A stretch of DNA of 64,000 bases from Bacteroidales bacterium. GTDB taxonomy: Bacteria; Bacteroidota; Bacteroidia; Bacteroidales; UBA3824. Position 1 is the stretch's first letter; each line of letters opens with the position of its first letter. The notes below the pieces were generated by a model. The model made no database searches. It was not told the DNA's origin and worked only from the letters and a program-made list of their open reading frames with translations. Where the stretch lies: the NCBI GenBank assembly GCA_024413595.1, contig JAKSUC010000001.1, forward strand, positions 66,073-130,072, in the 5' to 3' direction. Shown here piece after piece: positions 2,864-36,495 of the stretch. A program made the translations under genes and the position numbers.

Positions 2864-2900
2864 TTCGGCAAAATTGAAATTCAATTTTAATTTTGCCGAA
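2864..2900. repeat. Inverted repeat unit 1 (left flank of ATPase gene)
   Basis: A 37-base inverted repeat with outer arms TTCGGCAAAATT and AATTTTGCCGAA. It begins 3 bases beyond the stop codon of the AAA/DUF4143 ATPase gene. Two more units of the same motif lie just upstream of that gene (4140-4174 and 4232-4270). It may double as a terminator for the ATPase gene. Confidence 0.85.
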
Positions 2901-2903
2901 AAA

Positions 2904-4124
2904 TTAGATGTATGATATTGGTACAATTGATAGTTTTTCAGAATATTTTACTATTTTTTCTGCTAAACAAAGAATACATCCTTGTCCCATTGTCATATTT
3001 GGAATGTCTTTTAACACAGGAAAATTTTTTGCCATAGTAGAAGATGGTTGTGCAGATTTTTTAATTTCTATTGGATATATAGTATTGTCTTTAACTATTA
3101 ATAAATCAATTTCTTTTTGATCTCTATCTCGATAATAGTACAGATTTTGAACATCAATTCCAATATTTTTGTAAGATTTATAAATTTCAGAAATAACAAA
3201 TGTTTCAAAAATATTACCTGCCATAGCTCCATTTTTCAATACTTCGGGAGATGTCCAACCAACTAAAAAACATACAAGTCCTGTATCAAGAAAATATATT
3301 TTAGGAGTTTTGATTGTACGTTTAAATATATTATTTTCGTATGGTTTTAAAATATATATTAAACCAGACGATTCAAGAACAGAAATCCAAGCTTGAACTG
3401 TTTGTAATGAAATTCCTATTGAACGTGCAATGTCGTTAGGTATCAATAATTCACCTGTTCTTGAAGCTAATGCAACTAAAAATTTATAAAATAAATTGTC
3501 GTTTTTTATATTTATTATCTCTTTAACATCACGTTGAATATATGATTTTACATACGAATTATAAAAAAAATGCCAATCATTATCTTTATTTATTAGTTCA
3601 GGCATTGAGCCTCTAAATATTTTTTCCCAAATTTCAATATTTGTGTTTAAACAAGATTTTCTATTTTCAAAATAACTATCAGTAGGTAAAAATGGTTCAT
3701 TAAAATTGATTCTTTGTAATTCTCTTATTGAAAAAGGTGGAAGTTCTAAAATTCCAATTCTTCCAGCTAATGATTCTGATACATTTTTCATTAACTGATA
3801 TGTTTGAGAACCTGTTAAGCAATATATTCCTTTAGTATCTTGTTGATCTACAAGATATTTTATTCTTTTAAAAAGATTAGGAGAATATTGAATTTCATCT
3901 ATTATTAAAGGTGTTTTATGGTTTTGAAAAAATTGAACTTCATCATTTTTCGCTAAATCATATTCAATAATATCATCTAGAGTAATATATTCGTAATTAT
4001 CAGATAATAAATGCTTTAATAATGTAGATTTTCCTACTTGACGAGCTCCTGTTAATAAAACAACTTTAAATTGTTTTAAATATTTTAATAAAGTATTTTC
4101 TATTAATCGTGGTAAATAATTCAT
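2904..4124 (-). CDS. AAA ATPase with DUF4143 domain
   Basis: A 406-residue member of the large AAA_14/DUF4143 family. The Walker A motif GARQVGKST is at residues 26-34 and Walker B LIIDEIQ at 73-79. A sensor-like TGSQ and an Arg-rich ELPPFSIREL segment follow. The C-terminal half has the winged-helix part (GISLQTVQAWISVLESSGLI) and the DUF4143 nuclease-like fold with YYYRDRDQKEIDLLI. Members occur in many near-identical copies in Bacteroidota and archaea. Their cellular role is not settled. The gene is bounded on both sides by the same inverted repeat, which suggests it moved as a unit or is controlled through it. No neighbour shares its strand closely enough to be in an operon with it. Confidence 0.85.
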   Translation of the reverse strand: MNYLPRLIENTLLKYLKQFKVVLLTGARQVGKSTLLKHLLSDNYEYITLDDIIEYDLAKNDEVQFFQNHKTPLIIDEIQYSPNLFKRIKYLVDQQDTKGIYCLTGSQTYQLMKNVSESLAGRIGILELPPFSIRELQRINFNEPFLPTDSYFENRKSCLNTNIEIWEKIFRGSMPELINKDNDWHFFYNSYVKSYIQRDVKEIINIKNDNLFYKFLVALASRTGELLIPNDIARSIGISLQTVQAWISVLESSGLIYILKPYENNIFKRTIKTPKIYFLDTGLVCFLVGWTSPEVLKNGAMAGNIFETFVISEIYKSYKNIGIDVQNLYYYRDRDQKEIDLLIVKDNTIYPIEIKKSAQPSSTMAKNFPVLKDIPNMTMGQGCILCLAEKIVKYSEKLSIVPISYI

Positions 4125-4139
4125 ACATCTTCTATTTTA

Positions 4140-4174
4140 TCGGCAAAATTAAAATATAATTTTAATTTTGCCGA
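4140..4174. repeat. Inverted repeat unit 2 (upstream of ATPase gene)
   Basis: A 35-base inverted repeat with arms TCGGCAAAATTAAAAT and TTTTAATTTTGCCGA, nearly perfect. It starts 15 bases upstream of the ATPase start codon, so it should be in its 5' leader or promoter. Confidence 0.85.
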
Positions 4175-4231
4175 AGTTTTTAGCATATTTTATTTTCAGA
4201 AACGTACTTTTACCTATTTTATTATGATATA

Positions 4232-4270
4232 TTTCGGCAAAATTAAAATACAACTTTAATATTGCCGAAA
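4232..4270. repeat. Inverted repeat unit 3 (upstream of ATPase gene)
   Basis: The third copy has arms TTTCGGCAAAATTAAA and TTTAATATTGCCGAAA, with one mismatch in the arm. It lies about 57 bases beyond unit 2 and before the promoter of tRNA-Glu. Confidence 0.85.
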
Positions 4271-33559: not shown

Positions 33560-34102
33560 TTATTTTTTACTATGTTTAATAATTGCATCGGCTAATTTTT
33601 GCATATTGGTATTGATGATATTTTTGATGCGTTTGTCTGTTTCTGGACTAAAGCCAATAAATTGACGTTGTGGGATTGTAATAAAACTACCAATAGGCTT
33701 GAGCGCCATTGCTTTGTAAAAATTAGCTATTTTTGATACTCCTAAAGAAGATTTCATTAATTCACCGTTCTTTTTACGCTTTATTTTTGGTGTTAATTCT
33801 CGATATTTAGCCCAAAAATACTTCTTCATTTTTGGAGTTACTTTTATTTTACCACCTTCGTTTTGAATTTTAGCGTATGGTAAATTAGAGGTCCATTGAA
33901 TAGTGTTGCCGTTGATGGATGCTTTTAAGCTACGGCGTAAAGTGCCTGTTTGCATCATCAATGTGCCACGTATATCTATTTTTCGATTTTTCCAAGGCTT
34001 ATTATTAAAACTTTTTGTTTCAAAACTTTTATCAAATAAGTCTGATAAATCTACGCAAATTTCATAGAGTATTTTTTGTTTTATTTTATCTATTGCTGAC
34101 AT
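33560..34102 (-). CDS. Phage virion morphogenesis protein (Mu gpG/Phage_tail_S type)
   Basis: A 180-residue protein of the phage virion morphogenesis family, related to Mu protein G. The recognisable features are TLMMQTGTLRRSLKASINGNTIQWTSNLPYAKIQNEGGKI, followed by the basic Lys-rich middle and IPQRQFIGFSPETDKRI near the end. It seems intact and has a GGGAATAA leader. It is the only complete phage structural gene in the remnant. A broken second copy of its first 80 bases lies at 35275-35357. Confidence 0.75.
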   Translation of the reverse strand: MSAIDKIKQKILYEICVDLSDLFDKSFETKSFNNKPWKNRKIDIRGTLMMQTGTLRRSLKASINGNTIQWTSNLPYAKIQNEGGKIKVTPKMKKYFWAKYRELTPKIKRKKNGELMKSSLGVSKIANFYKAMALKPIGSFITIPQRQFIGFSPETDKRIKNIINTNMQKLADAIIKHSKK

Positions 34103-34115
34103 GGGAATAAATTAT
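34032..34115. repeat. Direct repeat: start of gpG-type gene, intact copy
   Basis: The leader and first 24 or so codons of the morphogenesis gene. A diverged copy of 83 bases is at 35275-35357. Confidence 0.85.
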
Positions 34116-34135
34116 TAGATGCGAGCGATTGCTCG

Positions 34136-34379: not shown

Positions 34380-35303
34380 TATATTTATATATATAGGATT
34401 TAAGCCTCCTCGTAATATAATTACAATTATTTTTATAATTACATCTTCACCTCTTGCATTGCAAATTTTTTTATATGAAATTATTGCATCATTAATATTT
34501 TGTTCATTAAACCATTCGGGAACATGATAATATAAACATAAAGCATTAGCATTGCCACCAACATCATTATTATATGATATTAATTGTTTTTGTTTGTCCG
34601 TTAATGAATTAACAATTTTTGTTGTTTTTGAGCATACCGAACGAATGTCCATTAATTCACCATTTATTATTGCATCTAATGAAGAAGCATATTGTCCATT
34701 GGGGCTTTGGGTATTTTCATTTTGAATTATACAACTGCCGCCCATTTTAAAAATTTCATTTTGACAAAAATCTTCCAATTGCGTAGGTGAATATTCAAGT
34801 AATGTTTTTTCATTTTTATGTTTCTTACGACCTTTATGTGTTGCCATTAAACCGCCTGTTTTGGAGTTAAATTTTACATTCTTATAATTTGGATCATTTT
34901 TATATTTTTCGTAATCGGCTTTGTTTTGGTCGTATCGTTTTTTACTTTCGCATTCTTTATTAAATAATTTTCTAATAACATTACATGCTTTACACAAAAT
35001 ATTATCAGGATCATACGCCAAATTCTTACTACCAATGCCTTTTTTACACTCTCCACACCCTTTCGGAAAATACGGATGTTTAGGCGGAAAAATCTTTTCA
35101 ACCTTGCCAGGATTGAAACGGAAAATCTTTTGAGCTGGTTTTGATGTTGCAAATTCACCAGCTTTAATTGCTTCGTTAGTGTTAGTTTCTGGATAACGAT
35201 CTTTAAGAACTTCGACTACTGTGCAACGACAATTCCAACCAAGTGGCGGATAAAAATTGTTCCAGAACTTGTCGTCAAATAAGTCTGATAAATCTACGCA
35301 TAT
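34377..35303 (-). pseudogene. 5'-truncated MuF-type head protein with CdiA-like nuclease tip
   Basis: An open frame of 308 codons without an in-frame ATG. The first 60 or so codons hold the MuF signature WNNFYPPLGWNCRCTVVEV and the linker EKIFPPKHPYFPKGCGEC, as in phage minor head proteins. The rest resembles the CdiA-CT type nuclease tip seen on MuF proteins: FNSKTGGLMATHKGR, then SSLDAIINGELMDIRSV, which looks like the D ... (D/E)-x-K active site of a PD-(D/E)XK enzyme, here with Arg for Lys. The frame begins directly after a piece of the gpG-type gene start, so the 5' two thirds of the MuF gene are lost. The tip could still be translated from a TTG at 35021. Confidence 0.65.
35053..35101. 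repeat. 49-bp linker repeat, copy A
   Basis: Encodes EKIFPPKHPYFPKGCG (with flanking codons) before the CdiA-like tip. It matches copy B at 36375-36423 in 46 of 49 bases. Confidence 0.9.
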
Positions 35304-35357
35304 TTATAGAGTATTTTTGTTTTTTTTTTATCTATTGCTGACATGGGAATAAATTAT
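35275..35357. repeat. Direct repeat: start of gpG-type gene, broken copy
   Basis: An 83-base copy of the gpG-type leader and first codons, with several indels in the A-runs. It begins MSAIDKKKTKILYKYA and stops at codon 17. In another frame it runs VDLSDLFD straight into DKFWNNFYPPLGW of the MuF remnant. Confidence 0.85.
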
Positions 35358-35360
35358 GAG

Positions 35361-35775
35361 TTACGAATTTAAAAAAGCAATGCTTAAAGTATCACCTTGT
35401 TTTGTAAAGCCAAAAAGACCTTTTAATTTACCTTCTTTTAGAAATGGTACACAATTAACAAAGTTTGTTTTAGTCATGTAATACGCATCTCTATTAGCAT
35501 CAATAAAAATAAAACCAATTCCAGAAGTTGAAAAATGGTTGATGCCGTCAAATTTAAGTTCTGCTTCAAAGGTATAATTTGAAGGTTTTAATTCTTCGGC
35601 TTTTTCGTTTATATAATAAGAATGTTCTTTGCCTGTATAAGGTTTTCCATTAATAATTGGAACTTGCCATGTTTTTTTGTCTTTAGTTGTATATTTTGTT
35701 TAGTTCTATCATTTTTTTATATGTTTTTGTTTTTTTATTTGGATTTTGATTTTTTGGTTTGTACTTTTGTGGCAT
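35361..35775 (-). pseudogene. Frameshifted gene behind orphan toxin tip, possible immunity gene
   Basis: The first frame begins at an ATG at 35775 (MPQKYKPKNQNPNKKTKTYKKM) and stops at 35683. The next frame is open from 35699 to 35361 and encodes a beta-rich segment (TWQVPIINGKPYTGKEHSYY, then YTFEAELKFDG, and IAFLNS at the end). A single indel near 35690 would join them into a protein of about 135 residues. It lies immediately downstream of the orphan toxin tip and before the gpG-start fragment, which is the normal slot of an immunity gene. I do not recognise its family. Confidence 0.5.
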
Positions 35776-35842: not shown

Positions 35843-36424
35843 TTATTCAGGTGGTTCACCTTCTATTAAATCCCATGGCTTGATACTTTCTATTGTATAA
35901 AGAACCTCCCCATAATCTTTATGCATTTTGACATTCGCATAATAAAATTCTCCATTAATTTTTAAAGAATAATAAAGGAAAAATTTTGTTTCTTTATGTT
36001 TTGGCTGCCCATTTTTATCTTTTCTATTTTCCCTCCATCCTTCATATTTCCAATTTTTTAAAGAATCGGGGAAATTAAAATTTTCAATCCAATCACGGAT
36101 GTTTGCATCTTCGATTTGATGTGTTAATACATCAGAAAGGCTACGTCTTAAAAGTATAATATATTTATGTTTAAAATTTTTATTTTCGTATTTAATCCCT
36201 TGAAATTCATTTATTGATTGCTTATTATTATCAATAATTTTTTCAAGTCTTTTCCTTTCTTCTTTTGGGACATTGCCACGTTGTTTTTTAGAATTTAATG
36301 CTTGTATTATTTTGCATAGTTCACATTCTTTTTTGTTAGTATTTGAAACTAAATTCAATCTTTTTGAACAATTGCCACAACCTTTCGGGAAATACGGATG
36401 TTTGGGCGGAAAAATCTTTTCAAA
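35843..36424 (-). pseudogene. Orphan MuF toxin tip, BECR/PBECR-like
   Basis: A frame of 193 codons. It opens right after a stop codon and begins FEKIFPPKHPYFPKGCGNC, the same linker as in the MuF remnant at 34377-35303. No MuF core precedes it. The rest is unrelated to the CdiA-like tip: a short Cys pair (ECELCK), a basic helical part, then ETKFFLYYSLKINGEFYYAN and GEVLYTIESIKPW. This ending looks like the phage-encoded Barnase/EndoU/ColicinE5-D/RelE (PBECR) nucleases, which is an inference from pattern only. It might be started at a TTG at 36358. It is probably a silent cassette. Confidence 0.55.
36375..36423. repeat. 49-bp linker repeat, copy B
   Basis: The 5' end of the orphan tip. It matches copy A (35053-35101) in 46 of 49 bases. 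The similarity to phage sequence stops at its edge, so it marks the right border of the remnant. Confidence 0.9.
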
Positions 36425-36495
36425 CTAATTCAGTAATAATTGTTTTGAAATCTAAATTTATTTTTATTAAAAGAAATAAATTTAACAAAATTTTA

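Follow-up and report, generated by a model that had tools for sequence, protein, structure and literature searches.

In this study, we examined an ATPase gene that is surrounded by three copies of one palindrome, together with its relatives in the same genus and beyond. From the comparison of these sequences, we consider it reasonably likely that the palindrome is the cognate site of the ATPase it accompanies and serves as its autoregulatory operator, and that the gene and its sites form an exchangeable cassette. Palindromes were enriched ahead of genes of this family, they shared a common register across distant relatives, and their sequence tracked that of the protein.

The window gene and its palindromes

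The window, which is the whole 64-kb stretch of DNA analysed, carries the gene on the minus strand (2904..4124). It encodes a protein of 406 aa with the domains AAA_14 and DUF4143, a family of very common, uncharacterised ATPase-nucleases that is thought to have a role in antiviral defence. Pfam matched DUF4143 at 4e-46 and AAA_14 at 2e-30, both above the curated cut-offs, and the PADLOC model of phage-defence candidate PDC-S01 matched at 4e-108. The AlphaFold2 model of the protein reached a pLDDT of 92.8 and a pTM of 0.92. According to Pfam and the alignments, the AAA_14 ATPase domain spans residues 19-136 (3717..4070, minus), with Walker A at G26-K32 and Walker B at D76 E77; the residues of both are conserved in the family alignments (A1, which covers the genus, and A2). 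Inside DUF4143, the alignments indicated the pattern D340...E353-x-K355 (3060..3107, minus), which we take to be a PD-(D/E)XK nuclease motif. All three residues are invariant in A1; A2 shows D340 as invariant and E353 and K355 as conserved at 90% or more. Residues about 209-259 (3348..3500, minus) probably form a winged helix-turn-helix, judged from the model and the sequence, and this is the proposed DNA reader. The modelled secondary structure of the region consists of helices at 209-220, 229-236 and 240-252 and a strand at 256-259, and the only library match was to cas_HTH at residues 202-258, which is weak and far under its cut-off. Foldseek with the window model gave 2qen, a Walker-type archaeal ATPase, as the best match, followed by STAND, RuvB, ORC and Can2 (CARF-nuclease) chains. 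A profile search for sequence relatives in the PDB gave 0 matches.

The three palindromes are near-perfect and 37 bp long, with the arms TTCGGCAAAATT/AATTTTGCCGAA and 0 or 1 arm mismatches; their coordinates are given without strand. The 3' copy (2864..2900), recognised by arm match and hairpin fold, lies 3 bases past the stop codon. The proximal 5' copy (4139..4175), 14 bases ahead of the start codon, is the proposed operator, and its half-site falls in the family register by eye. The distal 5' copy (4233..4269) is the second upstream and the best matrix-scored site of the gene; it was recognised by arm match, fold and matrix. A sequence-only reading had reported the repeat on both sides of the gene, close to its stop and start codons, and once farther upstream, and these coordinates confirm it. 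The same reading had seen no further copy in the window, and this was borne out, as every other site has at least two mismatches to the arm. No promoter of the window gene was settled when the upstream region was read by eye. Elsewhere in the window, two pairs of direct repeats (34061-34124 / 35303-35366 and 35040-35104 / 36362-36426) are 86-89% identical and suggest tandem duplication.

The copies fold into hairpins on both strands, with energies of -16.7 to -21.9 kcal/mol and z-scores of -5.1 to -7.6, and each time 0 of 200 shuffles was as good. At up to 3 mismatches, the own genome (3.94 Mb, 195 contigs) contains exactly three copies, all at the window gene (reversed control: 0). The search of 17 congeners at the same threshold found 0 copies, and its reversed control gave 1 match in one genome (G005). 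The exact pattern TTCGGCAAAA-N15-20-TTTTGCCGAA, which just one of the three copies satisfies, occurred in one of the 395 genomes searched from the phylum, taken to be Bacteroidota, and this was the own genome; its reversed control also occurred in 1 of 395 (G021). With three copies in the own genome, none in 17 congeners and one genome in 395, a genome-wide REP-like repeat was ruled out.

Palindromes in the genus and in distant relatives

Across the 18 genomes of the genus, the profile PF13635 had 408 matches, with 2 to 53 per genome. We examined 116 unique ORFs: every one of the own genome and, from the others, chiefly those with the best scores. Of these, 104 (103 for the matrix) passed the length and flank filters. 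The start codon of each gene was taken as the first or nearest ATG, a rule that may have misplaced some of them. The control genes numbered 133 without those near known palindromes and 156 with them kept. A palindrome scoring at least 15 within 110 nt of the start codon was found for 34/104 DUF4143 genes and 2/133 controls (p=5e-12); against the larger control set the same count compares with 2/156 (p=2e-13). Palindromes in both flanks occurred in 10 of the 104 and in 0 of the 133. At score 13, 65 of the 104 genes showed no 5' palindrome, and the motif was mostly absent from the clades of 430-450 aa.

The same-genus relatives carry different palindromes at equivalent positions, and the window protein is 35-46% identical to the relatives that bear them. 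The group A palindrome, TTGGACAAATTTAAAGT-N3-ACTTTAAATTTGTCCAA, lies ahead of the ATG and, where the contig covers it, directly past the stop codon. Group B has GACAAATTGAAAGTT-N-AACTTTCAATTTGTC, group C a GCAAATTTACTTTT-type and group D a TACAAATTYGGAAT-type palindrome. The prediction that the window repeat itself would flank most DUF4143 genes therefore fails: clades have palindromes of their own, many genes have none that was detected, and copies at both ends are a minority. A second, unrelated palindrome of the GATACTACCGCCAAATCTC type was seen near group-C ATPase genes (L035, L036, L044). Other repeats were also observed in the own genome, where one DUF4143 gene (L022) is flanked by 114-bp direct repeats, another (L020) has repeated units of about 36 bp on either side, and an ATPase_2/DUF234 gene (L029) is flanked by 86-bp direct repeats.

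Searching named genomes with a profile yielded 80 more distant relatives, many of them from Bacillota, Spirochaetota and Pseudomonadota and some from archaea; 73 of these loci were usable for the palindrome count and 72 for the flank-repeat count. Within 100 nt of the ATG, a palindrome scoring at least 15 preceded 20/73 relatives and 1/118 control ORFs, and at a score of at least 13 the counts were 29/73 and 2/118, leaving 44 of the 73 without a palindrome at that score. The closest match of the window gene, at 54% aa identity, is in an Acidaminococcaceae MAG of the Bacillota (L192), and its palindrome TTCGGCTAAAATG...CATTTTTGCCGAA (TTCGGC...GCCGAA type) sits 13 nt before the ATG. Genes of Lachnospiraceae (L230, L232) and of Adlercreutzia equolifaciens (L227) likewise have TTCGGC...GCCGAA upstream, and half-sites of a related form are readable in L194, L199 and L206. 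Palindromes matching the window type thus precede relatives in Bacillota and Actinomycetota. In L192 (about 310-1690), near-identical 38-bp direct repeats stand on either side of the gene and its palindrome, such as an insertion with a long target duplication would leave. Among viral-contig homologues, 4 of 20 have a palindrome within 200 nt 5'. The exact patterns of groups A and E gave 0 matches in viral contigs, in a search that would miss variants, and a phage-borne palindrome was left unsupported.

In the tree, the window gene groups with rows from Bacillota and Mycoplasmatota (SH-aLRT 97, four-row set) and not with group D of its own genus. This position makes it likely that the window gene was acquired by transfer, for which a tree alone is no proof.

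The register of the palindromes was determined by an ungapped centre alignment of 76 half-sites from 38 distant genes (of 73 examined), which were chosen for the presence of a palindrome and not for its sequence. The half-site consensus TTTTGGCTAATTTGGAATTT contained 10.55 bits, compared with a mean of 3.3 and a maximum of 4.0 when letters were permuted per gene with both arms treated alike. When each 50%-identity cluster was represented by one gene (18 genes), the value was 11.55 bits vs 4.2 (maximum 5.9). A matrix was then built from 36 genes outside the genus, leaving out two Bacteroidota-labelled rows, L212 (Paludibacteraceae, close to group D) and L269. The upstream regions of the genus DUF4143 genes scored over those of the controls (AUC 0.69, p=7e-8, 103 vs 156), and the window gene ranked 4th of 103. 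Ten of the 103 genes, and 2 of the 156 controls, lay above the 99th percentile of the controls; since only these ten did so, the shared code belongs to some clades and not to all DUF4143 genes. The full matrix recovered groups C, A and B in the same register.

Among the 66 palindrome-bearing genes of 177, protein distance and palindrome similarity were correlated at r=-0.58 in a Mantel test, and 0 of 2000 permutations were as low. For pairs with less than 50% aa identity, r was -0.25. Part of the correlation comes from shared descent. That some relatives in distant bacteria have matching palindromes close ahead of the start codon suggests that each protein has its own DNA site, and on these comparisons the palindrome element is family-wide, though not universal. 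A literature search by title and start of abstract, with most subscription journals and all preprints outside its reach, found nothing on a cis palindrome of PDC-S01, DUF4143 or AAA_14.

Presence and absence of the gene between palindromes

Group A palindromes were found in 31 copies in 16 of the 18 genomes, and the reversed control found none; for groups A and B the copies per genome ranged from 0 to 3. The analysis covered 29 of the 31 copies (G003:C22 and G016:C313 were not among them), and palindromes from one locus in several genomes are not independent. Ten copies bound a full group-A ATPase, in five genomes, and in L182, at a contig end, two more adjoin or lie close to a truncated one. 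The other 17 had no group-A ATPase in the fetched stretch, some of them being near contig ends, and a pure operator does not predict these copies. Group A copies at different loci have about 100 bp of sequence in common.

At locus II, one genome (L172, G017) has the cassette and another (L173, G001) has one palindrome in its place; with flank identities of 96.7% and 95.6%, the two sides join exactly at that palindrome. The left flank of this locus (L173, 8300-9000) is from a multi-copy gene family that most congeners possess, so palindrome-free genomes are unreadable as clean empty sites. At locus III (L169 vs L176), identity in the right flank is 96% as far as the palindrome, and the left flank is about 80% identical over some 100 bp, with an indel farther out. 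At locus I (L168 vs L175 and L177), the neighbourhood is shared, several hundred bases by the palindrome differ, and the junction is inexact. The sequence-only reading had named insertion points marked by the repeat as support. Filled and empty sites were found in group A relatives only, exact at locus II, close at locus III and inexact at locus I; an insertion- or excision-like polymorphism was seen for the cassette of a relative rather than for the window copy. A peptide-transporter locus considered as the empty site of the window copy was dropped, as the neighbouring transporter gene is non-syntenic in the congeners compared.

For group B, the left flank of L309 and L307 is 93.8% identical through the palindrome, after which the gene is absent and the right flank is 74% identical. 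Comparison of L303 with L313 and L304 showed a palindrome, then remnants of the first codons of the ATPase, then other DNA. Because L313 and L304 retain these codons of the group-B ATPase, the single palindrome there is a scar. With the palindromes themselves included, repeats in both flanks (score at least 25) were found for 12/104 genus and 4/72 distant DUF4143 genes and for 0/158 controls. From these comparisons, the gene and palindrome behave as a cassette that is gained or lost. Deletion via recombination between the copies could account for all of the cassette observations, and active insertion by the protein is possible.

At a fourth locus (IV), one palindrome pair holds other genes: in L174 (8633-9348) a PIN_3-domain gene and, upstream of it, a small gene, and in L184 (7358-8073) a different pair of this kind. 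These gene pairs are probable toxin-antitoxin systems. In L182, the ATPase adjoins one of these palindromes.

Proposed operator, alternatives and significance

In the 38 distant palindromes, the left half-site sometimes includes a hexamer resembling a -10 box, with one resembling a -35 box located 16-18 bp farther upstream. A sigma70-like match of at least 9/12 at the left arm was found in 8/38 on the sense strand vs 2/38 on the antisense strand, leaving 30 of the 38 without one. The sense match was better in 21 and worse in 5 of the 38 (paired p=4e-4), and L194, L226 and L235 are examples with TTGACA. Most group A 5' copies that adjoin an ATPase have TAATTTTG, which we take to resemble the consensus of the Bacteroidota -7 box; the 3' copies and most single copies have AAAATTGG or similar. 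Such promoter-like boxes at the palindrome arm give the layout of an operator at a promoter. At the family level, the palindrome lies at the promoter or start and its sequence follows the protein. The sequence-only reading had proposed that the repeat either travels with the gene or is a specific operator or RNA element. This inference stands: palindromes of this type are found ahead of relatives in other phyla and are very rare elsewhere in the genomes searched; the position at the start codon and, for some relatives, the overlap with the promoter point to the operator.

One protein combines the AAA_14 ATPase, the probable winged helix-turn-helix and the PD-(D/E)XK-type nuclease domain, and we propose that a dimer or larger oligomer of it would read both half-sites of the palindrome. 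Placed between promoter and start codon, the palindrome would act as an operator through which the protein limits its own synthesis. The gene and palindrome would be inherited and transferred jointly, so that the site keeps pace with the protein. A second palindrome past the gene, as here and in some relatives, would make the gene and its sites a cassette. Crossing-over between the copies could then lead to loss, and probably gain, of the cassette, with one palindrome left behind.

Some of the same observations would be expected if the palindromes were attachment or cut sites on which the ATPase-nuclease acts to insert its own gene, with any operator role secondary. Such homing fits the group A gene lying between two copies in five genomes, the gene-free palindrome at locus II (L172/L173), the roughly 100 bp common to group A copies at different loci, the repeats in both flanks of 12/104 and 4/72 genes vs 0/158 controls (a count that includes the palindromes) and the placement of the window gene among Bacillota in the tree. 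Against it, both copies are present in few distant relatives (4/72 with any flank repeat at score 25 or more), some single palindromes are scars (L313, L304), there are 0-3 palindromes per genome with no amplification, and identical junctions are also expected from homologous recombination between repeats. We regard this explanation as rather unlikely. Equally doubtful is its fuller form, in which PDC-S01-type ATPase-nucleases would be single-gene mobile elements that use their own palindrome as operator and landing site and home into resident copies, and gene-free palindromes would be waiting or vacated sites open to other cargo, such as the PIN-domain gene pairs.

The strong hairpins, and the ends of the 38 distant copies 1-52 nt ahead of the ATG, would also suit a hairpin in the 5' leader that limits translation or stabilises the mRNA, with the 3' copy doing the same at the other end. 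Pairing holds for 93.4% of cells across the 29 group A copies, and at 7 pairs both sides have changed, a number that 0 of 500 shuffles reached; the covariation score is 0.109 vs at most 0.042 for slid partners. Two group A copies in the L169 genome have arms that are different yet symmetric, and the outer arms vary symmetrically in group A while the protein remains about 80% identical. These symmetric changes agree with an RNA element, but slid partners also reach 6 pairs and 18 two-sided cells, and symmetric change at this protein identity fits hairpin pairing under selection or self-templated mutation as well as a site read by a protein dimer. A half-site register and consensus fixed across phyla, and a left arm that overlaps -10-like boxes in some relatives, are not what an RNA element would lead one to expect, and we hold it to be quite improbable. 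As for ordinary intrinsic terminators or chance AT-rich hairpins, the 3' copy does sit past the stop codon, but the same sequence stands upstream of the start as well. Hairpins at the 3' end were hardly enriched in the genus (15/104 vs 9/133, p=0.08; at score 19, 9 vs 3, p=0.035), in contrast to those at the 5' end, and the palindrome sequence is conserved along with the protein. The fold z-scores, the 5' enrichment in the genus and in distant relatives and the shared register led us to reject this barely credible explanation. The autoregulatory operator within an exchangeable cassette remains the reading that we prefer.

Several known systems resemble this arrangement in part. Homing endonuclease genes are nuclease genes that are present or absent at a defined site, as is the gene here; the difference is that an intact palindrome stands on both sides after insertion. 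RAYT transposases are associated with cognate extragenic REP palindromes, and the likeness lies in a gene with cognate palindromes and in single palindromes elsewhere. The window family, in contrast, has AAA_14 and DUF4143 and no tyrosine (Y1 HUH) transposase. REPs usually exceed 100 copies per genome, according to PMC2817692, whereas the palindromes here number 3 in the own genome and 0-3 per genome for groups A and B. RptR, described in PMC12255303 as a repressor of restriction-modification systems, offers another likeness, in that DNA-binding control dedicated to a defence gene is also proposed here, but the candidate reader in our case is the ATPase-nuclease itself.

PMC12988326 ranks PDC-S01 fourth by frequency among the defence systems of prokaryotes, counting 9986 copies in Archaea and 29,494 in Bacteria, and states that most PDCs still await validation. 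In PMC13356809, it is the most frequent individual locus in the rumen genomes surveyed. The window protein likewise belongs to this family and has the PD-(D/E)XK-type motif, and its antiviral role is that of a candidate. The passages on PDC-S01 in the two papers say nothing of a cis palindrome or a cassette. A cognate DNA site shared throughout the family would give a biochemical handle on these proteins, with a ready substrate for binding, cleavage and reporter assays for each palindrome-bearing protein, and cognate palindromes may explain the spread and exchange of PDC-S01 genes between genomes.
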